NCBI GenBank assembly: GCA_017454745.1
Contig: JAFTCL010000001.1
Location: forward strand, 1-64,000
Direction of reading: 5' to 3'
Length of the DNA stretch: 64,000 nucleotides
Origin: Kiritimatiellia bacterium
GTDB lineage: Bacteria; Verrucomicrobiota; Kiritimatiellia; RFP12; UBA1067
The translations under genes and the position numbers were made by a program. The notes under the pieces were generated by a model. It was given only the letters and a program-made list of their open reading frames with translations. It was not told the origin of the DNA and ran no database searches. Of the stretch, positions 38,270-64,000 are shown one piece after another (positions within the stretch are counted from its first letter, which is position 1; every line of letters begins with the position of its first letter).

Positions 38270-40045
38270 TCACACCGTACGGTTAATGATGTCGGCGACC
38301 GTTCCGCCCGGCGGAATCATCGGGTAAACGTTGGCGGTGGGCGACACTATGCACTCCACCACCTGCACCCCGCCAGACGAGAAAGCCCGTTCCAGCGCGG
38401 GAACCAACTCGGCTTCGCTGGAGACCCGGCAAGCGGTTGCCCCGTGCGCCTCGGCCAGTTTCACGAAGTCCGGCAGGAATCCCGGACGGTCCGGCACCCC
38501 TTCGTTGGAGGTGCGCCCGGTTTGGGAGATACTGACCCCGCTGTAGCGTTTTCCGTAGAACAGTTCCTGCCACTGGCGGACCATCCCAAGATAACCGTTG
38601 TTAAGAATCACCATCACCAGCGGCAACCGGTGTTCAACCGCCACCACCAGCTCCTGAAAATTCATCTGCGCCCCGCCGTCGCCGGAAATGCACACCACGG
38701 TGTCGCGGCGGTTTCCGAACTTTGCGCCAATCGCGGCGGGCAGGCCGAATCCCATCGTACCCAAACCACCGGAACTTATGAAATGGCGGGGTTTGGCGCA
38801 GGGGTAATACTGCGCCGCCCACATCTGATTCTGGCCGACGTCGGTAACCACCACAGCACGGCCTTTGGTCAGCTCGCAAATCCGTTCCACAACCGTTTGC
38901 GGCATCAGTTCGCCTTCACGGCGCGGGTAGGTGAAGGGGTAGCGGCTTCTCCAGCGGTTGATCTGCTCCAGCCACTCCCGGTGTCTGGCGGGTTTAATTT
39001 CCGACGCCAACGCCTCAAGCACCTCGCGCAAATCGCCGTGGATCGCCAAATCCGGCTGAACAGTCTTTCCAAGCGAGGAGATGTCGATGTCGATGTGCAC
39101 AATCTTGGCTTTCGGGGCAAAATTGTCGGCCTTACCGATCACGCGATCGTCGAAACGCGCCCCGGCGGAAATCAGCAAATCGCAACGGGCGGCGGCGTAA
39201 TTGGCGGCCACGCTACCGTGCATACCCACCATGCGCAGGGAAAGCGGGTCGTTGTCAGGAAACACGCCCAGCGCCATCAAAGTGGCGCACACCGGAATAT
39301 CCGCCTTGCGGGCAACGGCCGCCACCGCTTCGGAGGCATTGGCGGCAACCGCCCCGCCGCCGACGTAAAGCAGTGGCGATTCGGAGCGGTTGACCATGTC
39401 GGCCAGATCGCGGATCTGCGCCGGGTCAACCTTGTAAACAGGATTGTAGGAACGCATCTTCACGCGGTGCGGCGTCTTGGCTGCGGTCTTCGCCCGCTGA
39501 AGATCGTCCGGAATGTCTATCACCACCGGGCCCGGTTTGCCGGTGGTGGCAATGTAGAAAGCCTTGGCAATGGTTTCAGGGATCTCGTCCACGCTGCGGA
39601 TCAAGAAATTGTGTTTGGTGACCGAACGGGTGATGCCTGAGACGTCAGCCTCCTGGAACGAATCGTTGCCGATCTGGCCCAAAGCGACCTGGCCGCAGAT
39701 GCAGATCAGCGGCACACCGTCCATAAAAGCGGTGGCCAACCCAGTAACAGTATTGGTCGCCCCTGGGCCGGAAGTGACCAGACAGCACCCCGGACGGCCC
39801 GTGGCCCGCGCATAACCGTCCGCCATGTGCGCCGCCCCCTGCTCGTGTCGGCAAAGGACAAATTTCAGGGGGGCGTCCGTAAGGCAATCGAAAATTTCCA
39901 ACACCTTGCCGCCGGGATAACCGAACAGCACCTCGCATCCGGCGTCCACCAAACCGTCAACCACGCACTGCGCCCCGCTTCTCAACTGCGGAATACGCTT
40001 TCTTGCGGCCGCGCCGGGCCGCCCGGACCGTTTTTCGCTTTTCAT
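38270..40045 (-). CDS. ilvB: Acetolactate synthase large (catalytic) subunit
   Basis: About 591 residues. Thiamine diphosphate enzyme making acetolactate or acetohydroxybutyrate, the first common step to valine, leucine and isoleucine. Motifs: VLFGYPGGKVLEIFD with the catalytic Glu in the following RHEQGAAHMADGYARATG, LVTSGPGATNTVTGLATAFMDG, SAGARFDDRVIGK, and the cofactor-binding GDGGAQMNFQELV...ILNNGYLGMVRQW. Start chosen at 40045, with gggga 8 bases upstream; an ATG five codons earlier is an alternative. No promoter is evident in the 80 bases between rpsU and ilvB, and a strong terminator hairpin lies there. Confidence 0.94.
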   Translation of the reverse strand: MKSEKRSGRPGAAARKRIPQLRSGAQCVVDGLVDAGCEVLFGYPGGKVLEIFDCLTDAPLKFVLCRHEQGAAHMADGYARATGRPGCCLVTSGPGATNTVTGLATAFMDGVPLICICGQVALGQIGNDSFQEADVSGITRSVTKHNFLIRSVDEIPETIAKAFYIATTGKPGPVVIDIPDDLQRAKTAAKTPHRVKMRSYNPVYKVDPAQIRDLADMVNRSESPLLYVGGGAVAANASEAVAAVARKADIPVCATLMALGVFPDNDPLSLRMVGMHGSVAANYAAARCDLLISAGARFDDRVIGKADNFAPKAKIVHIDIDISSLGKTVQPDLAIHGDLREVLEALASEIKPARHREWLEQINRWRSRYPFTYPRREGELMPQTVVERICELTKGRAVVVTDVGQNQMWAAQYYPCAKPRHFISSGGLGTMGFGLPAAIGAKFGNRRDTVVCISGDGGAQMNFQELVVAVEHRLPLVMVILNNGYLGMVRQWQELFYGKRYSGVSISQTGRTSNEGVPDRPGFLPDFVKLAEAHGATACRVSSEAELVPALERAFSSGGVQVVECIVSPTANVYPMIPPGGTVADIINRTV

Positions 40046-40080
40046 CACACCATTCCCCAAAAGCTTCCTGAAAAAACCTT

Positions 40081-40112
40081 AAAGCCCACCCGGAACGTTC
40101 CGGATGGGCTTT
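40081..40112 (-). terminator. Strong terminator hairpin between rpsU and ilvB
   Basis: The 16-bp arms pair with a single c/a mismatch and almost no loop (centre at aacgtt). On the minus strand the hairpin is followed by AAGG and six T. It ends the rpsU transcript; the reverse direction lacks a T-run. Because no ilvB promoter is visible after it, it may also limit read-through into ilvB. Confidence 0.7.
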
Positions 40113-40126
40113 CTAGCGCAACTCAA

Positions 40127-40327
40127 TTACGCCATCTCGCGCATCAAACGACGGGAGTTGTTGCGGATGCGGGCACGGGCTGATTTCTTACGGGCCTTCT
40201 CGCACGGCTTCTCGTAATAGCGGTTGTTACGCAACTGCTTAATCAGGCCTTCCTTGTCCATAATCTTCTTGAGCCGCTTCAGCGCGCGCTCAACAGATTC
40301 GCCCTTTTTCAATCGAATCAGAATCAC
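40127..40327 (-). CDS. rpsU: 30S ribosomal protein S21
   Basis: About 66 residues: LIRLKKGESVERALKRLKKIMDKEG, then NNRYYEKPCEKARKKSARARI and a basic tail, the standard S21 profile. I prefer the GTG at 40327, because aagggg lies about 9 bases before it. A GTG three codons earlier (40336) and the ATG at 40351 are in frame but badly placed for that ribosome site. A promoter and a terminator flank the gene. Confidence 0.88.
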   Translation of the reverse strand: MILIRLKKGESVERALKRLKKIMDKEGLIKQLRNNRYYEKPCEKARKKSARARIRNNSRRLMREMA

Positions 40328-40414
40328 GCTTTTCACCCCCTTCCAAACCACCTCCGGCTTCCTGGGACACCATGTCAGGCAAAAAAGAAGCCTTCTCCGG
40401 TAAAGAGAAGTAAA

Positions 40415-40444
40415 ATGATATCAAATTTCCCGATGCAAAGTCAA
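40415..40444 (-). promoter_or_regulatory. Promoter of rpsU
   Basis: On the minus strand TTGACT (40444-40439), 18 bases, TATCAT (40420-40415). The -10 box lies in the sequence TGATATCATTT, which also forms the -10 region of the ilvC promoter. Confidence 0.55.
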
Positions 40445-40517
40445 ACCCAAAATCCAATAAATCGGATTTAATCGATAATGAAACCAATTTCTGCACGGTT
40501 CCGTGCCCAACGCAACT

Positions 40518-40602
40518 CTTTTTAGCCGCAAAGGGCGCAAAGTAACGTCGTTAGCGTTAAACCGTCAAACTGTCAAACTGCCTAACCGTCAAACGATCCA
40601 AC
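40518..40602. repeat. Composite intergenic repeat, copy 1
   Basis: Module A (40518-40543) contains tttagccgcaaagggcgca. Module B (40556-40602) is a run of loose octamers of the type ccgtcaaa, including accgtcaaactgtcaaa, which occurs identically in copy 2 at 48067-48083. The block ends a few bases before the stop codon of the Nif3-like gene. No coding potential. Confidence 0.65.
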
Positions 40603-50949: not shown

Positions 50950-53900
50950 TTAACGCAACAGCATGATCGTCCCGCCGGTGTTTTCGACCACCACGTCCAT
51001 ACCAGCGTTCTGGATGGAAACCGTAGTGCTGCTGTTAATCGGCGCACCGTCAACGGTAATCGTCCAGCCGGACAAATCAAGTTCTCCAAAGCCGGCGTCG
51101 GAATGGAACACCGTCGCCCGGGCGGGAAGCGCAGAGCCGTTTACGGTCTCGAAATCCAGCGACAAGTTGGCAGGGAGAGACAAATCGGCGGCGTAGATTC
51201 CTCCGCAGTTTCCGGACGATACTATTGCCTTCGCTTTCGCCCCGGCGGCGATCACCGCCTTTTTGGTGACAGTCAACCGTCCGTCACTGCCCGCCGCGCC
51301 AAGCACCAGCGTACCGTTGGCCGCCACGCCGAGGCTGTCCAACACCTGGCCGATGCCGCCGAACACCGCACCGCCCGCCACCGCGACTTTGCCGACGGTC
51401 GACGAGTCGTTACCGAACACCAAACCGCCGGCGTTAATCGCCCACGGGCCGGTGGCCATTACGGAACCGTTAACCGTCAGGGTACCGCCGCCGAGTTTCT
51501 TGACCTCGCCAAGACCGGTAATCATGCCGTCGAAGGTCTGGTCTTCCGCAATATCGAAATGTCGGCTGTAGTCGCGCGCCTCTTCAACGCTGACAGCGTA
51601 GCAGTGGAATCTGTCAGAGGTATTTGAATCAACCTCCACGATATGCCCGTTTCCACTAGCTTTGAAACGGCACACTATGTAACGCGGCAGATAACTTTCC
51701 AAATCATCCTCGTTGAGAGACATCGTCTGAGTACGCTCGCCGGTTCCGGAAGTGGGATTGTAAGACACCGTGATGGCCCGGTTTTTGCCCACTTCCCAAA
51801 CACGGGTGTAGATGCGCATCTCGTAAGTCTTGCCGGAGATCAAACCGCGAACCGTCAACGCATTGGTTGCGGTGTTGTAACACATCCCGGTCAGAATCTG
51901 GTAGAATCCCTGGTCGGAACCCATCGCGACATTCCCCATATTGCCGCCGCCATGCGAAGAGGTCGGCAATCCAGATAAGCTGCCACCGGTTCGGCTGTCG
52001 CGGTAGTAGGTGTTGGCGTTGTTCGGGCTGTAGCAGCGGAAGAAGGATTCGTTCACCGGAATCACATCCTTAGTAGTGTCCGCGCCTGAGGCGAACGTCT
52101 CGGCAACAATGTATTTCTTGCTGCTGCCGAAACCGCTGTCGGCATCGGAATTGAAGTAAACCAGCCGCTGAATGTCGGCATCGGCGAACGTGCCGTCGGC
52201 CTGTAACTCGCCCCACAAGCCGTTTTCGCCGTGGGTCAGCTCCACCATGCCGGAACCGCTCAACCCGCCCACGGAAGATTCGTTGCGAAGCTCCAGCACG
52301 GCGGCGGTACCGAGGGTGGCGGTACCGAACACGCTGCCGCCCGCCTCCAACACCGCGCGTCCGGCATTGACCGTAATACCGCCGGTCAGCGCATTGGCAC
52401 CGCGGTAGTACTGGGTTCCGTAGCCGTCCTGCACCAGCGAACCTTCGCCGTTAAGCGTGCCGTCGAAGTATCCCTTAGTCCCTTCGGTGGTGGAGAGCGT
52501 CAGCTCCTGCGACGTTTCCGGACCCGCCCCAGCCAACAACTCGTTTGAAAATGCGTAACTGTGTGGGTTGTCAAAAAGCAACGACCGGAAGTTGACGCTC
52601 ATCTCGCCCGAATCGTCGGCGGTGTAACGGAACACCATCGCGCCGAACTGGTCTCTCGCGCCCCAGCAGTGGTCGAAATCGAGCGTGTTGGAGGCGATCG
52701 GCTTACCGCCCACATAGAAGATACTCCGCACCAACCGTTTGTTGTTGTCCCAGTTTCGGAAGTAAATGCGGAACTCGTACCGGCTGCCGGGGGTGAGTCC
52801 CTTGAGGGTCATCGTCTCGTTGGCGCTTCCGTAAACGAAACCGTCCACAAGGCTTGCGAAAGTTTGGTCGCCGCCGACCGGACGGGTCGTGTGCGCCGTG
52901 GTCGACCAATTCTGCAGCTCGAACTCGCCGAACTCGCCGAACTCCACGCCGTTGCAAGTGGCGGTAGTGCCGAGCGGGAAGTTGATCAAATGGGTGTACT
53001 GCTTGTCGGGCGAGATGCCGCTGTCCGCGTCGCCGCCGATGTTCACCAGATACAGCCCGGTGTCGCCAAGATTGACCGCACCGTTGCCGGAAAGCGAAGT
53101 CACCGTTCCGCCGTTGGAGAACAGACTCCCGCGCTCTTCCACCGCCACAATGGCGGAATCCAGCTCGCCACTGCTGATGAAGATGCCGCCCGACCCCGCC
53201 AGCAAATTGCCGCTGCCGTAAACGAAGGACTGCAACCCCACCCCCAGCGTGGCCAGCAAACCGTTGCCTTTCCCGTAAAGGGTGCCGTTGAACAGCGAGT
53301 CCGTGAATCCGCGGTTAAAGTTGGCAATCGCCACATTGGAGCCGTTTTCCGGTTCGAGATTTCCGTCGCCGGTAAGGTTTTGCATCCCGAAGTACGGCGT
53401 GAACCACTCGATCGGAATCAGGTGTTTCCCGGTCTCGCCGGGCGCGGTCACAAACAGGTTGGCGTAGGCGTTACCGGTGTACTCAAATATGCCGAGATAG
53501 AACCTGTGCGGACCGGCGTTAAGGTAGCACACGTCCAAAGCCTCAAAACAGTTGGTGTGGGCAAGCTTGACCGAACCGTCAATTGCCATTATCATGCTGT
53601 CATCGAGGGTGGCGTAGAATTTGTATTCGCCGGTAGCGGGAATCGTGATCACACCTTCCCAAGCAGCCGCCCAATGGTCAGCGTTCGCGTGCAACGAGCC
53701 ATTGCAGTATTGCTCCGGCAGACTGACCGCCGCATCGGTGGCACGGTCGGAGAAGCAGCTGCCTTCCGCGCAGTCGAAGAAGTAGTTGCCGAGAACGTTA
53801 AGCGTGTCCAGATATGCCCGGAACGCATCATAGTCGTAAACCTTACCGCACAACGCCATAAACTGCGCGGTATTGGCGACCGGCATATCGTAGAAAGTGC

Positions 53901-56900
53901 CGACCAAACCGTGAACTCCGGTAGAACCGGTGGCGCGGGCGCTGCCGTTCAGCGCAACGCTGCCGGGCTTTACCCCGGCTCCCAAGGCAAGTGTGCCGTT
54001 GTCAACCTGCAACGTCCCGTCAAAGCTGCCGTTCAAGTCGGTCGGGGCGTATGTAATCGTACCGGTACCGGTCTTGACCAACGTTCCGGAACCGGAAAGG
54101 GCCCCCTCCACCATAATATCGCCGCCGACAAGTGTCACGGTGTTGTCCAAAGCTAGCGACGCGCCATCCTGCACCGCAATATCACCCGCCAACTTGGCGT
54201 TTGGACCGAACCCAACGGCACCCGCTTTCACGTCCAAATCGGAAACCACATCGCCGTCAAAGGTGACTTTTCCCACCCCGGCGCTGATTTCAATGGCTTT
54301 GGAGCTAAGATTGGTCACACCGCTGGCAATCACGTGCGAACCGTAATCCACGCTCACCGTCGGAACGCCGCCCGACACCACATCGAACAGAATCGAACCG
54401 CCGGTCAAAGTGTAGGTGTTGTTGTTCACGAAAGACAACCCGCTGAGCGTGTAGGCATCCTGCAACGTCACCGTAGCGGGGGCACTGACGGCGGTGCCGA
54501 ACACCGCCGAGACGCCAAGCCCGTCAGGAGCGTTGGAATGATCCCAATTGTTGTCCGGCCACTTGCCGCTACCGTCGTGAATCCAAGTGTACACCGCATT
54601 GTCGCCGCCCGGCACGATGCTCAGCGTGATGGCGTCGCCGGTGTCTGAAAAGATGTAGTCATATCCCTCGACCTGTGAAGAATAATCGACCGTCAGGTTG
54701 TTGACATTGCCCTCGAACGTTCCGGAGTATTTGAAGAGCGTGTAAACGCCGGACTGCCCGTAATAATCCGCGCCGGTGATTTCGTTGCGGAGTTTGAAAA
54801 TCACCGCGCCCAACTTCAGGTTGGACACCTCCAGCTGGTCATATCCGTTGGAGTCGAAAGATATTAATCCGTGGCCGGTAAAATCGAGCGAGGCCAGCCG
54901 GGACTGCAACGCCCGCTTGTATCCGACCTCAAAATTTCCGGACACCGCCACCGAAACCGCGTCAGGAACCGAACCGTCCAAAATCAGCGCCGTGCCGTTG
55001 TTTACGTTGATGGCGGCAGCCTCCACCGAATCCCCGAGCGTGATGTCGCCCAGCACCACGGTGCCGCCGGAAACGCCGCCAACCGTCAAATCGGGACGGT
55101 TGAGGGTGATTCCGCCCAAAAATCCCGCCACGCCGGAATTAGACCCCAGCGTAACCGAAGCCGCTTCGGGCCCAATCGCAATCGGTCGCCGGGAGATAAA
55201 TCCGTCCAAATTACCGTAAAGGGCGGGTGTCGCATCGGCGGCGGTCTCGGCATCCGAAATCGCAACCACGTGGTTGATGTCACGGGCCAAAGACGGCTGG
55301 GTGGCGACTGGATCCCCGCTCCAGGGATGAATTTCGCCATTGTAAAGTTCCGAATGATCCAGAACGACGGCACCGTCGCGAATGGTGGTCCAACCGTTGA
55401 ACACATTGGCGTTGACATTCACGAACTGCAGAGTGCCTTTGCCGGACTTAATCACCTTGGCATCATCATAGACATCCTCGTTGTTGCTGTGGGCAGAGCT
55501 TTTGACAAAACCGACCGTGGTCAACAAGTCATTCCCGCCAATGTCAAACTCGCACACTGGCGACAACAATCCGAAAGTGGAGGTTGCCTCGTAAGTGAAC
55601 CCGTTGCCGGTGGTGCCGCAAACCGCCACCCCGTCACCGGCCATGTTGATACCGTATCCGGAATAATTCTGCCTAAGGTCGAAATAAAGCGCCGCGCGGG
55701 TGTTATTGCAGCGGATCTGGGGGTTCTGGTTCTCTTCGTACTGCGCCATTATAACCGCACCCTCGCAGACCACCACATTGGAACATTTGGTGGTACCGCC
55801 CTCCAGTTTCAGCGTGCCGCGCCCCAACTTGTGGATTCGGGTCTCCCGGCCTTCAATACCGATAATCGGATTGGAGATGGAAAGGTCGCCGTCTTCCACC
55901 TGCACCCACACCTTGGACGCAGCCTCGATCGAGGAGGAGATTTTCGCCGAACCGGCACCGTTTTTTTCGACCTTAGACCAATAGCCCGAATTGTCATGGT
56001 CGGTGATGTAAAGCCCGGTACCGGACAGCTCGGTCACGTTACCGTAGCCGACCGCGCTCAAAGCCAGATAGTTCATCGTGGTTTTTAACACGTCGTTCAC
56101 CAGCGACACCCCGTCCATACCCGGAAAATCCATCAGCAGCGTCGGCGCTCCGCCAGCCGCCACCAGAGACCACCCGTTGGCCCACAGCGCGGCGGTTGAC
56201 CAGCTGCCACCCTGCCCCGCCACTGCGGCGGCGGTGAGAACGTTCACGGCGATGGTTCCGCCGCCGGACAGGTTCGCGTTCGCGTTGATGTCCATCGCCG
56301 CCAGCTCCAATGAAGAAGCGAGCGCGTGTCCCAGATAAGCGCCGGTGAAAGACCGCTCCACGTTCGCCCCGGCCTCGGCGGTCAGCGTGGAGCCTTCAAC
56401 CATCGCCAACGTCGGCTCGGTGGCGGAAGGAACCGACAACCGCACGTCATCCACAAACGAGGTGTTGTCGAACGACCGGTTGTTGCCCGCCAGTTCGATC
56501 TTGTGGCTGCCGGCGGCAAAATAAAGCGGGCCGGTTGAAACGCGGCGCCAATCCTTGGAGAAATAGGGGTCGAACACGAACACCGCCGGGATATCGTCCA
56601 CCAGCACCGTAAAGCCGTGTTCATTCAAGGAATCACCGCTACAGCGCCGGAAGATCACGCAGGACAAATCGTAAACCCCGGCCTCGGCGACCGTAAAGGT
56701 CTGCGCCACCGCGCCGTAAATCTGCAACCCCACCATCATGCTGCCGTCGGGACAATCGGAGGTTCCTTCGAAACCTTCGTTACCCCACGATCTGGAGCCG
56801 GAGTTGTTCACATGCACCACTCGGTGATGGGTTGAATACTGCGGCAAATCCCATCCCGTCGGGATTTGGTCAGCGGCGGACGGATAACGGTATCCGTCGT

Positions 56901-57450
56901 AAAAAGGTTCTTCGAAGGAACCGTTCGTCAGCAGACTGGCCGACTGCGAGGGCATTCCGAGGATGGTGAAGGTCGCGCCGGAAACGACATGGACGTCGGC
57001 ATTCTGGAACCGGGAGCCGCCCGCCTGCAAAACGCCCTCCGCCACGTTCACCCGCCCGTGCAGCGAGGCGGCGGCCACAGTGCCGGCGCCCGATTTGGTG
57101 ATGGCGGTACCGGTGACGGTATCCACGTTAATCACGTTGATAGTGCCGGATGCGGCGTTGATCGCGCCGTTCAGGCGGATCATCCCTCGGCCGATCAGCA
57201 TCGCGCCGTTATATTGGAACACCAGGCCCGAGGCATCCACCGTTGCGGTGACATTCACCGTCGCCCCGTTGGGAAAGACAGCGGTGGCACCGTTTTGCCA
57301 GACGGTTTCCGAGTTATCTTCGGCCAGCCAGTTTGAGGTGGCGAGATCCCAGACTCCGGCCGCGCCGCCGTTCCAAACCAAATTCTCCGCGCACAATGAA
57401 AGTGCCGAAAATCCTATCGCAAGCGTTAAAACTATTTTTTTGCTATTCAT
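50950..57450 (-). CDS. Giant secreted protein with autotransporter-associated beta-strand repeats and a PA14-like domain
   Basis: 2166 residues. After a signal peptide (KKIVLTLAIGFSALSLCA) come many beta-helix segments of the PATR type, recognisable by K-G-GTL and V-GTL-G patterns: LGRGTLKLEGGT, KSGKGTLQFVNV, KTGTGTITYAP, KLGGGTLTVNGS. A DUF642-like jelly-roll module starts near residue 175 (LLTNGSFEEPFYDG, ending FVDDVRLSVP). A PA14-like module is near residue 1190 (GLVGTFYDMPVA, YKFYATLDDSMIMAIDGS), usually glycan-binding. Other modules repeat the pattern MTLKGLTPGSRYEFRIYFRNW. There is no C-terminal autotransporter barrel; the protein ends in a short strand, TGGTIMLLR. Likely a cell-surface or secreted adhesin or glycan-binding protein. 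Confidence 0.78.
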   Translation of the reverse strand: MNSKKIVLTLAIGFSALSLCAENLVWNGGAAGVWDLATSNWLAEDNSETVWQNGATAVFPNGATVNVTATVDASGLVFQYNGAMLIGRGMIRLNGAINAASGTINVINVDTVTGTAITKSGAGTVAAASLHGRVNVAEGVLQAGGSRFQNADVHVVSGATFTILGMPSQSASLLTNGSFEEPFYDGYRYPSAADQIPTGWDLPQYSTHHRVVHVNNSGSRSWGNEGFEGTSDCPDGSMMVGLQIYGAVAQTFTVAEAGVYDLSCVIFRRCSGDSLNEHGFTVLVDDIPAVFVFDPYFSKDWRRVSTGPLYFAAGSHKIELAGNNRSFDNTSFVDDVRLSVPSATEPTLAMVEGSTLTAEAGANVERSFTGAYLGHALASSLELAAMDINANANLSGGGTIAVNVLTAAAVAGQGGSWSTAALWANGWSLVAAGGAPTLLMDFPGMDGVSLVNDVLKTTMNYLALSAVGYGNVTELSGTGLYITDHDNSGYWSKVEKNGAGSAKISSSIEAASKVWVQVEDGDLSISNPIIGIEGRETRIHKLGRGTLKLEGGTTKCSNVVVCEGAVIMAQYEENQNPQIRCNNTRAALYFDLRQNYSGYGINMAGDGVAVCGTTGNGFTYEATSTFGLLSPVCEFDIGGNDLLTTVGFVKSSAHSNNEDVYDDAKVIKSGKGTLQFVNVNANVFNGWTTIRDGAVVLDHSELYNGEIHPWSGDPVATQPSLARDINHVVAISDAETAADATPALYGNLDGFISRRPIAIGPEAASVTLGSNSGVAGFLGGITLNRPDLTVGGVSGGTVVLGDITLGDSVEAAAINVNNGTALILDGSVPDAVSVAVSGNFEVGYKRALQSRLASLDFTGHGLISFDSNGYDQLEVSNLKLGAVIFKLRNEITGADYYGQSGVYTLFKYSGTFEGNVNNLTVDYSSQVEGYDYIFSDTGDAITLSIVPGGDNAVYTWIHDGSGKWPDNNWDHSNAPDGLGVSAVFGTAVSAPATVTLQDAYTLSGLSFVNNNTYTLTGGSILFDVVSGGVPTVSVDYGSHVIASGVTNLSSKAIEISAGVGKVTFDGDVVSDLDVKAGAVGFGPNAKLAGDIAVQDGASLALDNTVTLVGGDIMVEGALSGSGTLVKTGTGTITYAPTDLNGSFDGTLQVDNGTLALGAGVKPGSVALNGSARATGSTGVHGLVGTFYDMPVANTAQFMALCGKVYDYDAFRAYLDTLNVLGNYFFDCAEGSCFSDRATDAAVSLPEQYCNGSLHANADHWAAAWEGVITIPATGEYKFYATLDDSMIMAIDGSVKLAHTNCFEALDVCYLNAGPHRFYLGIFEYTGNAYANLFVTAPGETGKHLIPIEWFTPYFGMQNLTGDGNLEPENGSNVAIANFNRGFTDSLFNGTLYGKGNGLLATLGVGLQSFVYGSGNLLAGSGGIFISSGELDSAIVAVEERGSLFSNGGTVTSLSGNGAVNLGDTGLYLVNIGGDADSGISPDKQYTHLINFPLGTTATCNGVEFGEFGEFELQNWSTTAHTTRPVGGDQTFASLVDGFVYGSANETMTLKGLTPGSRYEFRIYFRNWDNNKRLVRSIFYVGGKPIASNTLDFDHCWGARDQFGAMVFRYTADDSGEMSVNFRSLLFDNPHSYAFSNELLAGAGPETSQELTLSTTEGTKGYFDGTLNGEGSLVQDGYGTQYYRGANALTGGITVNAGRAVLEAGGSVFGTATLGTAAVLELRNESSVGGLSGSGMVELTHGENGLWGELQADGTFADADIQRLVYFNSDADSGFGSSKKYIVAETFASGADTTKDVIPVNESFFRCYSPNNANTYYRDSRTGGSLSGLPTSSHGGGNMGNVAMGSDQGFYQILTGMCYNTATNALTVRGLISGKTYEMRIYTRVWEVGKNRAITVSYNPTSGTGERTQTMSLNEDDLESYLPRYIVCRFKASGNGHIVEVDSNTSDRFHCYAVSVEEARDYSRHFDIAEDQTFDGMITGLGEVKKLGGGTLTVNGSVMATGPWAINAGGLVFGNDSSTVGKVAVAGGAVFGGIGQVLDSLGVAANGTLVLGAAGSDGRLTVTKKAVIAAGAKAKAIVSSGNCGGIYAADLSLPANLSLDFETVNGSALPARATVFHSDAGFGELDLSGWTITVDGAPINSSTTVSIQNAGMDVVVENTGGTIMLLR

Positions 57451-57652: not shown

Positions 57653-57764
57653 TGATCACAAGCATTGCGGAACTTGCACCCTCAAAAAAGAAAAATTGGA
57701 TTTTTCTGTTGTATTGTGGACCGGGATTTTGATAACATACGCGGCGTTTGAGGTAATAAGCGTC

Positions 57765-57848
57765 ATGAGCAGCCATTCAATTTCGTTTTTCGCGCTCCTT
57801 ATTAACGCCGCCCTCCTTACGGGGACGGAGCGGGCGCGTTTACCCTGA
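57765..57848 (+). CDS. leuL: Leucine operon leader peptide
   Basis: 27-codon open frame whose translation is expected to sense charged tRNA-Leu. It begins MSSHSISFFALLINAALL and ends TGTERARLP. Control codons are two Leu-Leu pairs (codons 11-12 and 17-18, each CTC CTT) and a TTA at codon 26. FALLINAALL recalls the E. coli leu leader segment TGLLLLNAF, perhaps by convergence. No strong ribosome site is seen, only gaggtaa about 10 bases upstream. The stop codon is about 30 bases before the terminator and 89 bases before leuA. Confidence 0.75.
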   Translation: MSSHSISFFALLINAALLTGTERARLP

Positions 57849-57917
57849 ATGGATGCAATCCGTGACAGAGGATAAAGGCGGCCCCGCTCCGAAAGAGCGA
57901 GGCCGTTTTTGTTTTTT
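57826..57917 (+). promoter_or_regulatory. leu attenuator: antiterminator and intrinsic terminator
   Basis: The terminator pairs ggccccgctc (57880-57889) with gagcgaggcc (57895-57904), nine pairs with one mismatch and loop cgaaa, followed by G, five T, G, six T. The competing pairing is perfect over 9 bp: cggagcggg (57826-57834, codons 21-24 of the leader) with cccgctccg (57883-57891, the left arm and loop of the terminator). A ribosome stalled at the Leu codons would leave 57826-57834 free to form the antiterminator. A ribosome that reaches the stop would cover it and allow termination. This matches the classical amino acid attenuation logic. Confidence 0.8.
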
Positions 57918-57937
57918 AGCAGGCAAAGGAATAACCA

Positions 57938-59557
57938 ATGAGCGATAACAGGGTTAGGTTTTTTGACACGACATTGCGCGACGGCGAACAGGCGCCGGGC
58001 TATTCGATGACCCTAGACGAAAAATTGCGGATGGCACGCGAACTGGAAAACCTCGGCGTGGATGTGATCGAGGCCGGGTTCGCCATCGCCTCGCCAGGGG
58101 ATTTTGAAAGTGTACGACAAATCTCCAAGTCAATCCGCAACACCACGGTTTGCTCGCTGTCGCGGGCGCTGGCCAAGGACATCGATGCGGCAGCGGAATC
58201 GCTGGAAGGGGCCGCACACCCGCGCATCCACACTTTTTTGGCGACCAGCGACCTGCACTTGCAGTATAAACTGAAGATGTCGCGGGAAGACGCGCTGCAG
58301 CAGGTCAAGGCGATGGTGGCTTACGCCCGCAACAAATGCGCCGAAGTTGAATTCTCCGCCGAAGACGCCTCGCGCACCGACCCGGATTTCTTGTGCCGCG
58401 TTATCGAGGCTGCCATCGCCAACGGTGCCTCGGTGGTCAACCTGCCGGACACCGTGGGTTACGCCACGCCAAGCGAAATCGCGCAGATGGTAAACAATGT
58501 CCGCTCCAGAGTGCCGAACATCGACCGCGCCACCATCTCCATGCACGTGCACGACGATCTGGGGCTGGCGGTGGCGAACTCGCTCGCCGGAGTTATGGCA
58601 GGCGCAAGACAGGTGGAATGCACGGTCTGCGGAATCGGCGAACGCGCGGGAAACGCCGCGCTGGAAGAGGTGGTGATGGGACTTAGGACGCGCAAGGATT
58701 TCTACGGGCTGGAATACGGCATCCGCACCGAGGAAATCGGCAAGGCCGCGCGATTGCTCACCTCCATCACCGGTGTCAAGCCTTTCCCATCCAAATCCAT
58801 TGTCGGGGCGAACGCTTTCGCCCACGAATCGGGAATCCACCAGCACGGGCTGTTGAACAACCTGCAAACCTATGAGATCATGACGCCGGAATCGGTAGGG
58901 GTAAAAAAGACCGAACTGGTGCTGGGCAAGCATTCCGGACGACACGCTTTCGAAGAACGGCTGAAAACCCTGGGCTACAACTTCCCGAAAGACCGGATAG
59001 AAAAACTGTTTGAGGCGTTCAAGAAGACCGCCGACCGCAAAAAAACGGTTTCCGACCGCGACATCGTGGCTTTGGCGGAGACGGCGGTGCCTTTGGCGGG
59101 CAACCCCGAAAAAATGTACTTTCTGGAGTCGTTCGTGGTCAACAGCGGCAACCGCATGAGTTCCACCGCCAACGTGGTGCTGAAACGCGGCGGAAAAAAC
59201 TACCAGGAGGTTGCGCTCGGTACCGGACCGATCTACGCTTCGATCCGCGCGGTGGAAAAGATCATCCACCACCCGTTCAGTCTGGAGGATTACAGCATTC
59301 AGGCCGTCACCGAACACCGGGACGCGCTCGGCGAGGCCTCGGTCAAAATCCGCGACGAAACTGGGATTTACCGCGGACGCGGGGTTTCCACGGACATTAT
59401 CGAGGCGTCAATCCTGGCCTGCCTCTCCGCCGTCAACAAAATGCTGGACGAGAACCAGTCCGCCATCGGCACCGGAGCCGCGTCAAACACGCAGCGGACC
59501 TTCGAGCAGGATATGCTCGGTTGCGGCCACACCGACAAACAGCTTCCGCAATCTTAA
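57938..59557 (+). CDS. leuA: 2-isopropylmalate synthase
   Basis: 539 residues. Condenses acetyl-CoA with 2-oxoisovalerate, the committed step to leucine. Motifs: RFFDTTLRDGEQAPGYSM at the N-terminus, the metal-binding HVHDDLGLAVANSLAGVMAGA with CTVCGIGERAGNAALEEVVM, and the catalytic HESGIHQHGLL. The C-terminal 120 residues form the leucine-binding regulatory domain (ALGTGPIYASIRAVEKI). aaagga is about 6 bases before the ATG. First structural gene of leuACDB, directly after the attenuator, so it is controlled by both feedback and attenuation. Confidence 0.95.
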   Translation: MSDNRVRFFDTTLRDGEQAPGYSMTLDEKLRMARELENLGVDVIEAGFAIASPGDFESVRQISKSIRNTTVCSLSRALAKDIDAAAESLEGAAHPRIHTFLATSDLHLQYKLKMSREDALQQVKAMVAYARNKCAEVEFSAEDASRTDPDFLCRVIEAAIANGASVVNLPDTVGYATPSEIAQMVNNVRSRVPNIDRATISMHVHDDLGLAVANSLAGVMAGARQVECTVCGIGERAGNAALEEVVMGLRTRKDFYGLEYGIRTEEIGKAARLLTSITGVKPFPSKSIVGANAFAHESGIHQHGLLNNLQTYEIMTPESVGVKKTELVLGKHSGRHAFEERLKTLGYNFPKDRIEKLFEAFKKTADRKKTVSDRDIVALAETAVPLAGNPEKMYFLESFVVNSGNRMSSTANVVLKRGGKNYQEVALGTGPIYASIRAVEKIIHHPFSLEDYSIQAVTEHRDALGEASVKIRDETGIYRGRGVSTDIIEASILACLSAVNKMLDENQSAIGTGAASNTQRTFEQDMLGCGHTDKQLPQS

Positions 59558-59572: not shown

Positions 59573-60835
59573 ATGGGTATGACAATGAGCCAAAAGATCT
59601 TGGCCGCGCACGCCGGGAAATCCGAAGTCCACGCCGGCGAACTGGTGATGGCCAACTTGGACTTGGTGTTGGGTAATGACATCACGGCGCCGATCGCGAT
59701 CACGGAGTTTGAAAAATTCGGCGCGGCGCAAGTGTTCGATCCGGGAAAAATCGCGCTGGTTCCGGACCATTTCACGCCAAACAAAGACATCAAGGCCGCC
59801 ACGCAGTGCGCCTGTATGCGGTCGTTCGCCCAACTCCACCACCTCCGGCACTATTTTGAGGTCGGCCACGATTGCGGCGTGGAACACGCGCTGCTGCCGG
59901 AAAAGGGTCTGATCTCCGGCGGCGATCTGGTGATCGGCGCGGACAGCCACACCTGCACCTACGGGGCGCTAGGCGCGTTTTCAACCGGCATCGGTTCCAC
60001 CGACATGGCCTGCGGGATGGCGACCGGAAAAACCTGGTTCAGGGTTCCCGAAGCGATTAAAGTCGAGCTTACGGGACGGTTGCCGCCTTATGTCAGCGGC
60101 AAAGACCTGATTCTGCACTTGATCGGGATGATCGGCGTGGACGGGGCGCGGTACATGTCGCTTGAATTTTGCGGTGCGGGGGTGGCGGAGCTTACGATGG
60201 ACGACCGTTTCACCGTCGCCAACATGGCCATCGAGGCGGGCGCGAAGAACGGTATCTTTCCCTGCGACCAAGCATGCTGCGACTACCTGCGCGACCATAA
60301 TGCGAAACCGCCGACCGAGTATCAACCCGACCCCGACGCAGTTTACGTACGGACGATTGCGATTTGCCTGTCCGATCTGGAACCGACGGTCGCTTTTCCC
60401 CATCTGCCGGAAAACGCGCACCCCGTTGGCGAAGCGGAGGGAATTGAGATTGACCAGGCGGTGATCGGCAGCTGCACCAACGGGCGGCTAAGCGACCTTG
60501 AGGCGGCGGCGGAAATCATGCGGGGACGCAAAGTCCCCGATTCCGTGCGGTGCATCGTCATCCCCGCCACCCAGCGCGTCTGGCTGGAAGCGATGGAGCG
60601 CGGTTACTTGAAAATCTTCGCCGAAGCCGGTTGCGTAGTGTCCGCCCCCACCTGCGGGCCTTGCCTGGGCGGGCACATGGGCATATTGGCCAAGGGCGAA
60701 CGGGCGGTAGCCACCACCAACCGGAATTTTGTCGGACGGATGGGACACGTGGAAAGCGAGGTCTATCTGGCATCCCCCGCCGTAGCGGCGGCCAGCGCGA
60801 TAACCGGGCACATAACAGATCCAAGGAGGTTGTAA
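59573..60835 (+). CDS. leuC: 3-isopropylmalate dehydratase large subunit
   Basis: 420 residues, aconitase family, binds a 4Fe-4S cluster and isomerises 2- to 3-isopropylmalate with LeuD. Motifs: the substrate loop [40 protein letters not shown] (first cluster Cys in HTCTYG), [19 protein letters not shown], and [16 protein letters not shown] with the other two cluster Cys. The order and length fit the bacterial/archaeal LeuC2-type. Its stop codon overlaps the leuD start (TAATG). Confidence 0.94.
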
Positions 60836-61323
60836 TGAATATTCAAGGAAAATGCTGGAAATACGGGGACAACGTGGACACCGACGTGATAATCCCCGCC
60901 CGTTACCTTAACACCGCGGACGCGAAAGAGTTGGCGCGGCATTGCATGGAAGACCTTGATCCCGCGTTCGCCGGAAAAGTGCAGCCGGGCGAAATCATGG
61001 TTGCCGGGAAAAATTTCGGTTGCGGAAGTTCCAGGGAACACGCCCCGCTCGCGATAAAAACCTGCGGGATCACCTGCGTGGTCGCCGCCAGCTTTGCCCG
61101 CATTTTTTACCGTAACGCGATCAACATCGGTCTGCCGATTCTGGAATGCGCCGAGGCGGCTGCCGCCATCGACGGCGGCGACGAACTGGAGATTGACCTC
61201 AACGCCGGGACTATTGAGGACAAAACGCGCGGCACGGTTTTCCGAGCCGAACCTTTTCCGTCTTTTATGCAGGAACTGATAGCCGCCGGAGGGTTGGCGC
61301 AATACATGAGGGGACAAAAATGA
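60835..61323 (+). CDS. leuD: 3-isopropylmalate dehydratase small subunit
   Basis: 162 residues, the swivelling small domain partner of LeuC. Motifs: [37 protein letters not shown], and [18 protein letters not shown]. The frame is open far upstream inside leuC; the ATG at 60835 is chosen because aaggaggt lies 5 bases before it, and because the N-terminus then matches the family. The last codon overlaps leuB by 4 bases. Confidence 0.94.
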
Positions 61324-62387
61324 ACCGAAAAATCACCATAGTGGCCGGCGACGGCATCGGCCCGGAAATAATTGACGAGGCGATTAAAACGTTGAGGGCG
61401 GTCGGCGACAGCTTCGGCCACCAATTCCAGCTGGATCAGCAGCCAGTGGGCGGGACCGCATACGACCGCTTCGGGGATTGCCTTCCCGAAGCCACGCTGG
61501 AAAGCTGCAAAAACGCGGACGCGGTTTTGCTAGGCGCGGTGGGCGGCCCGAAATGGGACTCGCTGCCCGGCACGAAACGGCCGGAGCAAGCGCTGCTGGG
61601 ACTGCGCTCGAATTTGGGGCTGTTTTGTAACCTGCGCCCCGCCAAAGTGTGGGGGCCGTTGAAAGATGCCTCGCCGCTGCGGCCGGAAATAATTGGGGAC
61701 AATCTCGATCTGCTGGTGGTCCGGGAACTTACCGGAGGAATATACTTCGGCGGCCATCGGCGGAACGCCGATGGCAACCTAGCCGAGGACGTAATGGCCT
61801 ACTCGGCGGCGGAAGTGGAACGGATCGCGCGGATGGCGTTCGAATTGGCGCAAAAACGCCGACGGCACGTGACCAGCATCGACAAAGCCAACATACTTGA
61901 GGTTTCAAGGCTTTGGCGTGAAACCGTCATCCGAGTGGCAACCGAATATCCGGAAGTCAAGTTGGACCATTTGTACGTGGACAATGCGGCGATGCAGCTG
62001 GTACGGAACCCGAAACAGTTTGACGTGATACTCACCGGAAATATGTTCGGCGACATCCTTTCGGACGAGGCATCGCAAATCACCGGGTCGATCGGTATGC
62101 TGCCATCCGCGTCATTGCGGTCTGACGGGTTCGGGATGTACGAGCCAATTCACGGCAGCGCCCCGGACATCGCGGGCAAAGGCATTGCCAACCCGCTGGC
62201 GACCATTCTGTCGGTAGCGATGATGCTCCGCATGAGTTTCGGTTTGATCCAAGAGGCCGACGCGGTTGAACGCGCGGTCGCGAAGGCCCTGGAGAGCGGA
62301 ATACGCACGGCGGACATCGCGCGTCCTGGAGAAACCCCGGCCACCACCGCCGAGATGGGCTCGGCGGTAGCGGCACGAATTGCCTGA
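61320..62387 (+). CDS. leuB: 3-isopropylmalate dehydrogenase
   Basis: 355 residues, NAD-dependent oxidative decarboxylation giving 2-oxoisocaproate. Motifs: [117 protein letters not shown] and [23 protein letters not shown]. It overlaps leuD by ATGA. A short palindrome, acaact-ca-agttgt, at 62389-62402 after the stop has no T-run, so the operon end is not clearly marked. Confidence 0.95.
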
Positions 62388-62407: not shown

Positions 62408-64000
62408 TTAGTGGATGATAAACAACGTCGCGCCGGTGTACAACAGTTTCAATCCTTCCTCTTCAACGATTAGCCGGTATCCCGCCACATCATTGGCTTC
62501 ATCGGCCACGAAGGACACATTTGTCGGGGCCGTTGTCCAAGTTATCACGTAAGGTTTTTCCGCCTTGGACAACTCGATGAGATCAGCGCGGCCACGGAGA
62601 TCCACCGTAATGGTAGCTCCTTCAGCGAACGTAACAGTCTTCGAACCATTCGCGACCGTGGAAGTGCTATCCCAGGACCCAATATTCCCAGAGAGATTGA
62701 CAACCGAACCGTTCTGCATTTCGCAGCCGTAGAAATAGTCCGTCATCGGAGTAAACGTGCCGAAAACCTTAAGAACCCCCGTTCCCTCGTTATGGTTAGA
62801 AGAAGCGCGGTACGCCGTATAATCGCGCAGGTCGACTGGCGCGTTCACCCTCATGGCCGCCGCAACGCGGAAGGACGCATCCGTCGCAATCACCCCGGCG
62901 TTGCCGATTTCCAGCCAACCGCCGTCCATGACATCCAGAATACCATTCCTAACCTCGGTGTTGTAGAGGTAGAAAAGCTTTCCTCCGCTATTCAGCGCCA
63001 CCGATAGCGTGTACCCGCCGAGATCTAGGATGGCACGCGTATAACCGTTGCCGATGAAACCACAATGATTCTGGAAGTTAAACGCGGAATCTGCGGTAAG
63101 GAACACGTATTTTAACTGAGAAGTGCCGTTTCCGATATCGGCCGTCGTGTTCTGGAGCGTACCTCCGTTGAGCACGAAAGCGTTGTACCAGAAGTCGTAC
63201 TTACCGTTTGTCTCGAATACCGCGCCTTCATTCACCGTGACGGCACCCTGCGTCACCCCGGCATCGCAACGTGCGAAAATGATATTGTCAAACGTATTCG
63301 CCTTGTCGCCGGAAGTCGTGGGCTGATAGAATTGGAAGATGTAGGATCCGGCGTTGTTGAGCGTCACCTCCCCTTCGCAGACGGAGTAAGTGTCTGCCGT
63401 CGTCGTGACCGAAGCGATCTTGGTCACAACACCGTTATAGATCAACCGCAATTCCGTCGTCGCGCCAAGATATTTCGGCCGTCCCGCATAGTAGAAGGCG
63501 TAACGGTAGGTGCCGGGTTCGGAAACGACAATCGTCTGCGATGCCTCTGAAGTCGAACTTGCGTCAGTCTGAAGGAAGAGCGCGTACTTGCCGATCCCGC
63601 GCCCACTCGCGACCCACGTTCCGCTTGCCTTTGACAATCCGATCTTGTTGGGGGTGGACGTATCCCAATAGGGGTTGACGAACCCGTTACCACCGTTTGC
63701 GTAAGACCAGTTGCCGGAGTTGTTGCCCACAACGGTTCCGTCATCAAAGCTTCCGTTCTTCAAAAGGTTTATCGATCCCAACGGGAATTTCGTACCGATT
63801 AGCCCAGGTTTTAGCGTACCGGCTTCTACCACCGTGCCGCCGGAGAACGTCTGACCCGCTGTCACCATGGCCAGTGTTCCGGCACCGATCTTGACCACTC
63901 TCACGTTGTCTTTGATCGTGATGCCGGCAAGCGAGAACGTCTCGCCCTCCCCTACCTCGATCTGCAATTCGCCAATGGTGTTTGCCGAGTTAATCACACT
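62408..64000 (-). CDS. C-terminal part of a second large repeat protein (runs off the window)
   Basis: The frame is open to the window edge, so the start is missing; 531 residues are visible. It contains PATR-like pieces (VVKIGAGTLAMVTAGQTFSGGTVVEAGTL) and a DUF642-like jelly-roll module (LLKNGSFDDGTVVGNNSGNW, ending FDNIIFARCD). Beta-helix repeats follow (VTVNEGAVFETNGKYDFW, YNTEVRNGILDVMDGGWLEIGN). It has the same module order as the giant protein at 50950-57450 and ends similarly in YTGATLFIIH. No barrel domain. Convergent with leuB, 20 bases away. Confidence 0.75.
   Translation of the reverse strand, partial: SVINSANTIGELQIEVGEGETFSLAGITIKDNVRVVKIGAGTLAMVTAGQTFSGGTVVEAGTLKPGLIGTKFPLGSINLLKNGSFDDGTVVGNNSGNWSYANGGNGFVNPYWDTSTPNKIGLSKASGTWVASGRGIGKYALFLQTDASSTSEASQTIVVSEPGTYRYAFYYAGRPKYLGATTELRLIYNGVVTKIASVTTTADTYSVCEGEVTLNNAGSYIFQFYQPTTSGDKANTFDNIIFARCDAGVTQGAVTVNEGAVFETNGKYDFWYNAFVLNGGTLQNTTADIGNGTSQLKYVFLTADSAFNFQNHCGFIGNGYTRAILDLGGYTLSVALNSGGKLFYLYNTEVRNGILDVMDGGWLEIGNAGVIATDASFRVAAAMRVNAPVDLRDYTAYRASSNHNEGTGVLKVFGTFTPMTDYFYGCEMQNGSVVNLSGNIGSWDSTSTVANGSKTVTFAEGATITVDLRGRADLIELSKAEKPYVITWTTAPTNVSFVADEANDVAGYRLIVEEEGLKLLYTGATLFIIH

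Follow-up and report, generated by a model that had tools for sequence, protein, structure and literature searches.

How might a leucine operon be controlled in the Kiritimatiellae, an uncultured-rich class of the Verrucomicrobiota? Ribosome-mediated leader attenuation is a textbook mechanism, and leader-peptide attenuation is known mainly from Proteobacteria, with mixed evidence in Actinobacteria. The stretch of DNA analyzed here (64,000 nt of contig JAFTCL010000001.1 from a Kiritimatiellia bacterium; hereafter, the window) carries a leuACDB operon, and the region upstream of this operon is very probably a classical ribosome-mediated transcription attenuator.

Architecture of the leu operon and its leader

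The four operon genes were named by NCBIfam models:

57938-59557, + strand: leuA, 2-isopropylmalate synthase (TIGR00973, 692.5 bits against a cut-off of 598.7)
59573-60835, + strand: leuC, isopropylmalate dehydratase large subunit (TIGR02083, 685.6 bits against a cut-off of 610.65)
60835-61323, + strand: leuD, isopropylmalate dehydratase small subunit (TIGR02084, 245.3 bits against a cut-off of 245.85; above the TIGR02087 cut-off)
61320-62387, + strand: leuB, 3-isopropylmalate dehydrogenase (TIGR00169, 504 bits against a cut-off of 353)

The operon is flanked by two surface-type proteins, both encoded on the minus strand, one upstream (50950-57450, PA14 match) and one downstream (62408-63997, match to PATR, the passenger-associated transport repeat). 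Ahead of leuA lie the following elements:

57709-57736, + strand: candidate promoter (TTGTAT at 57709-57714, a 16-nt spacer and GATAAC at 57731-57736), picked by eye, a weak sigma-70 match
57750-57753, + strand: candidate Shine-Dalgarno sequence GAGG of the leader peptide
57765-57848, + strand: putative leader peptide ORF, MSSHSISFFALLINAALLTGTERARLP followed by a stop codon, 27 sense codons, read from the sequence and identical in a congener
57795-57800, + strand: control codons 11-12, CTC CTT (Leu-Leu), for which a stall at codon 11 was modelled
57813-57818, + strand: control codons 17-18, CTC CTT (Leu-Leu)
57791-57838, + strand: protector hairpin, predicted only (57791-57799 with 57829-57838; inner stem 57808-57814 with 57821-57828)
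57826-57834, + strand: 5' strand of the antiterminator, CGGAGCGGG
57883-57891, + strand: 3' strand of the antiterminator, CCCGCTCCG, which also belongs to the terminator's left arm and loop
57867-57917, + strand: intrinsic terminator hairpin with U-tract at 57906-57917 (RNAfold, -30.1 kcal/mol)

For these parts, the initial annotation proved accurate: the 27-codon leader with its two CTC CTT pairs has the coordinates that it had assigned, the 9-base segments at 57826-57834 and 57883-57891 are perfect reverse complements, and the T-rich terminator that it had placed 20 bases before leuA does end there, its T-tract closing at 57917 and leuA starting at 57938. The 9 perfect pairs would form an alternative antiterminator that uses the left arm of the terminator, so that the two structures are mutually exclusive. 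The terminator hairpin has one internal C/A mismatch, and a simple terminator scan did not list it on the + strand. The short, putatively translated leader ORF places two Leu-Leu pairs within 27 codons upstream of leuACDB, and Leu-rich leaders occupy the equivalent position upstream of leuA in relatives. Just four tandem Leu codons is low for the family; across 81 distinct leaders of relatives, Leu makes up 25.5% of residues.

Signals for expression of the leader are less distinct. Both the promoter and the Shine-Dalgarno sequence of the window's leader are weak, the GAGG motif lies 11 nt from the leader ATG, a long spacing, and a Shine-Dalgarno-like motif is present in only 20 of 83 leaders. 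The element at 57709-57736 is a candidate for the leader promoter, with the -10 the same and the -35 changed at one position in the congener; a promoter scan listed no leader promoter, this candidate included.

Predicted switching between antiterminator and terminator

The arrangement suggests the following sequence of events. RNA polymerase would transcribe the leader while a ribosome behind it translates the 27-codon peptide. When Leu-tRNA is plentiful, the ribosome would reach the stop codon (57846-57848) and cover 57826-57834, whereupon the terminator (57867-57917) would form and transcription would end. When Leu-tRNA is short, chiefly the isoacceptor that reads CUC and CUU, the ribosome would stall at Leu 11-12 or 17-18, the stall would break the protector hairpin, and 57826-57834 would pair with 57883-57891, leaving no terminator, so that leuACDB is transcribed. 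If the leader remains untranslated, the protector and terminator would prevail; the protector segment (minimum free energy (MFE) -21.1 kcal/mol), whose hairpin also appears in the MFE fold of the leader, is predicted to sequester the antiterminator strand in this state. Translation of the leader, stalling, termination in vivo and a response to leucine are what we infer from these parts.

Folding with ribosome-covered stretches masked, an equilibrium calculation with an assumed footprint and hence illustrative, gave values in keeping with this scheme: with the ribosome at the stop codon, the probability of the terminator in the full leader was 1.00 and that of the antiterminator 0.00, and with no ribosome, the protector hairpin together with the terminator reached 0.93. 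When codon 11 occupied the A site of the stalled ribosome, the antiterminator had a probability of 0.76 in the full-length leader. For a ribosome halted at Leu 17, this probability was 0.92 as long as the terminator's right arm had yet to be transcribed; the full-length equilibrium favoured the terminator (0.74 versus 0.24 for the antiterminator), and at codon 17 the switch must therefore act by timing. At Leu 18, the corresponding antiterminator values were 0.57 without the right arm and 0 once the leader was complete. In the model, then, the antiterminator strand is freed by stalling and masked when the ribosome has moved on to the stop codon, the effect being strongest at codon 11, dependent on timing at codon 17 and weak at codon 18. 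The earlier proposal that stalling at codons 17-18 frees this strand stands, with a small correction: the spacing fits, with the antiterminator strand beginning 7 nt after codon 18, inside the commonest range in relatives (5-7 nt), but codons 11-12 are predicted to release the strand too, codon 11 more effectively.

Leu leaders and their stems across the class

To place the locus among its relatives, with order, class and phylum denoting kinship ranks assigned by genome search, 162 genomes from the order were searched for leuA, which 105 of them yielded, and upstream DNA was analyzed at 104 loci, together with 40 leuA loci from the rest of the class and 26 from the rest of the phylum. Under one uniform criterion (a short ORF containing a dense Leu run, then a terminator of -12 kcal/mol or stronger, ahead of leuA), a Leu leader with terminator was found at 68 of the 104 loci in the order, 17 of 40 elsewhere in the class and 2 of 26 elsewhere in the phylum. 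The window itself scores just below this criterion, which is therefore strict. Examples of these leaders are MNTNLLLNGLLLLALTGRGAGLLV, MRRESYAFDLRLTGLWLLGCHGGEVV, MNANLMLLALLGLLLLGSGTGAVC and MKSALNLLALLLLLNEG; outside the Leu run, the leader peptides differ widely between genera.

Complementarity between the segment after the Leu run and the terminator arm is retained while the letters change by clade: CGGAGCGGG:CCCGCTCCG in the window corresponds in other clades to GCGCGGGGC:GCTCCGCGC, CCACGGGA:TCCCGTGG, ATCTGCGG:CCGCAGAT and GATCCGC:GCGGATC. In a permutation test over 83 loci from 35 genera, pairing of this segment with its own terminator arm outscored pairing with the arms of other genera (mean score 21.3 versus 16.9, s.d. 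0.6; p = 5e-5, the permutation limit), and at 30 of these 83 loci the final Leu codon of the run is followed after 5-7 nt by the antiterminator strand. Within one clade alignment, the terminator helix displayed double-sided changes (7 cells; 1 in 500 shuffles). The antiterminator helix gave no significant signal when covariation was tested column by column on a single clade alignment (A1), a result probably explained by sliding of the pairing register between genera, that of the window included; the within-locus versus between-genus permutation took the place of this column-wise test. The check that had been proposed at the outset, namely whether relatives keep the Leu codons and both competing stems, thus gave a positive outcome across the class, and the parts of the leu attenuator, their conservation and their co-evolution are established at the level of sequence comparison.

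Leu and Trp leaders separate cleanly between the two operons. Ahead of trpE, Leu leaders were found at 0 of 30 loci and Trp leaders at 18 of 30, the window's own genome included; conversely, Trp leaders ahead of leuA were found at 0 of 104 loci. The trpE element of the same genome is:

1239-1383 of locus L120 (G000:C67, trpE at 67373): Trp-Trp attenuator ahead of trpE, with leader peptide, antiterminator and terminator

Its leader, MKNAFNQFYWWRNFGFSVGAGLFSPISR, is followed by GAGCGGGGTTGTT, which is complementary to AACGGCCCCGCTC within a terminator that folds at -27.8 kcal/mol. The architecture is that of the leu leader, and the antiterminator and terminator letters are nearly the same (GAGCGGGG:CCCCGCTC); the differences are the Trp-Trp control codons and a gap of 22 nt between control codons and antiterminator, versus 7 nt in the leu leader. 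As an independent case with a different amino acid, this putative trp attenuator strongly supports the use of leader attenuation in the lineage. These data place classical leader-peptide attenuation, for both leucine and tryptophan, in the class; leader peptides become annotatable in Kiritimatiellae, and many examples are available for studying antiterminator-terminator co-evolution.

Comparison with known leucine leaders

The leuL-leuABCD system of Escherichia coli and Salmonella shares with this locus a Leu-rich leader, terminator, antiterminator and protector before leuA, and the same mode of action. It differs in gene order (leuACDB here), in control codons (CUC and CUU here, not CUA) and in phylum. 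Rfam matched only two tRNAs in the window and no T-box, riboswitch or leader family; the leader matched no leader family at the gathering score or at E-values up to 10 and so does not group with the enterobacterial leu leaders. The likeness that had been noted between the peptide core FALLINAALL and the enterobacterial leu leader is accordingly a resemblance and nothing beyond, the peptides varying as they do between genera of the order. In Staphylococcus aureus, a Leu-rich ilv-leu leader peptide with genetic support likewise combines leucine dependence and a terminator over branched-chain synthesis, but this system belongs to the Firmicutes, is located before ilvD and acts jointly with CodY (PMC5794164).

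In the actinobacterial LEU element, too, leuA is preceded by a leader ORF that contains a stretch of Leu codons; the element differs in its pseudoknot and in the pairing of its Leu codons with the leuA Shine-Dalgarno sequence, with no terminator, and classical attenuation was deemed unlikely there (PMC1262725). Identity with the LEU element was rejected, given the strong terminator that separates leader from leuA here and the lack of pairing between the Leu codons and the leuA ribosome-binding site in the fold predicted from nested pairs. A related possibility is that leader and hairpins are real and conserved but that control is non-classical, exerted for example by a leader-binding protein or at the level of translation, along the lines suggested for the LEU element. 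Streptomyces coelicolor provides the precedent, its leuA and ilvB leaders resembling attenuators while mutants proved inconsistent with classical attenuation (PMC1262725). Unlike the terminator-less LEU element, however, the Kiritimatiellae loci combine a strong terminator with an alternative antiterminator, at a spacing suited to ribosome stalling, all co-evolving, and we regard non-classical control as quite improbable.

Classical attenuation is a known mechanism; what is new is its taxonomic range, in a lineage for which no description was found. The initial annotation knew of no leu attenuator described there, and a full-text literature search likewise returned none for Verrucomicrobiota or Kiritimatiellae, with the surveys Vitreschak 2004 and Lopatovskaya 2010, which could contain predictions, lying outside that search.

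Invariance between congeners

From the ribosome-binding region to the U-tract (57748-57914), the window and its congener (G001) differ at none of 167 nt, a block that includes the GAGG motif. Between the same genomes, leuA has changed at 58 of 274 fourfold sites (21%), and its codons differ synonymously in 94 cases and non-synonymously in 8; at the fourfold rate, ~35 changes would be expected in the 167-nt block. The DNA upstream of the promoter has diverged past easy alignment.

Since the invariant block includes codons that stalling would not need, the leader peptide after its release, or else the small RNA left by termination, might also act in trans, as the leader peptide peTrpL does in Sinorhizobium (PMC7298713). 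The competing RNA structures span the same stretch and explain its invariance equally well, and the wide variation of the peptide outside the Leu run between genera argues against such a role, which we consider very improbable indeed. Classical attenuation in cis remains the preferred reading.

The window by itself, without its relatives, is a moderate case and only suggestive: the MFE of the whole leader has a z-score of -3.6 (as good in 1 of 200 shuffles), and the complementarity of antiterminator and terminator has p ~0.04 (dinucleotide shuffle of the leader). The order-wide sequence comparison puts the attenuator far beyond chance. That a random ORF came to lie next to an unrelated terminator is scarcely credible, even if complementarity alone reaches only p ~0.04, because conservation, class-wide recurrence, reciprocal leu and trp control and co-evolution refute it and because the upstream neighbour (50950-57450) lies on the minus strand, which leaves the terminator no adjacent + strand gene upstream whose transcript it could end.

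Control codons and tRNA-Leu

Among CTN Leu codons, CTT accounts for 282 of 466 (61%) in the leaders versus 129 of 1126 (11%) in the corresponding leuA genes; the codons of other amino acids show a much smaller shift in T-ending forms between leaders and leuA. CTT is most strongly favoured in the window's family (f1), where it makes up 63% of all Leu codons, versus 30-47% in other groups. The genome (~92% complete) yielded five tRNA-Leu genes, with anticodons TAA, TAG, CAA, GAG and CAG, one each, and the four control codons of the window are all either CTC or CTT, which belong to the GAG isoacceptor.

The Salmonella leu leader uses CUA, and theory explains the choice of control codons by selective charging (PMC1183508). 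CTT in Kiritimatiellae leaders may serve selective charging as CUA does in enterobacteria; alternatively, it may reflect pairing of the Leu codons within the protector hairpin. The leaders offer a test of why given synonymous codons become control codons. We tentatively propose, as a possibility that falls somewhat short of an even chance, that class-wide leader attenuation is a main control of amino-acid operons in Kiritimatiellae, leu and trp at least, with leu leaders tuned to one tRNA-Leu isoacceptor. If so, these leaders would constitute a natural, many-member test of the selective-charging theory of control-codon choice.

Leader-like elements at other loci

No leader attenuator was seen upstream of ilvB (38282-39979, minus strand) or hisG in the window's own genome. 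In the region at ~39900-40600 (minus strand), ilvB is preceded by a small ORF resembling ribosomal protein S21 and by a terminator-like hairpin (-27.8 kcal/mol), and a branched-chain leader peptide was not seen there. In the phylum outside the class, two loci (L196 and L197), from two other families, have isolated Leu/Ile-rich leaders with terminators before leuA; 24 other loci have none. Finally, in Bacteroidales loci (L038-L043), the DNA ~185 to 127 bases upstream of leuA holds the short leader MKNIGTTYIQLIGLLLIG together with a terminator that is conserved, GAGCTTTCTCACTTC...GATGTGAAAAGGCTC, and these elements look like attenuators as well.
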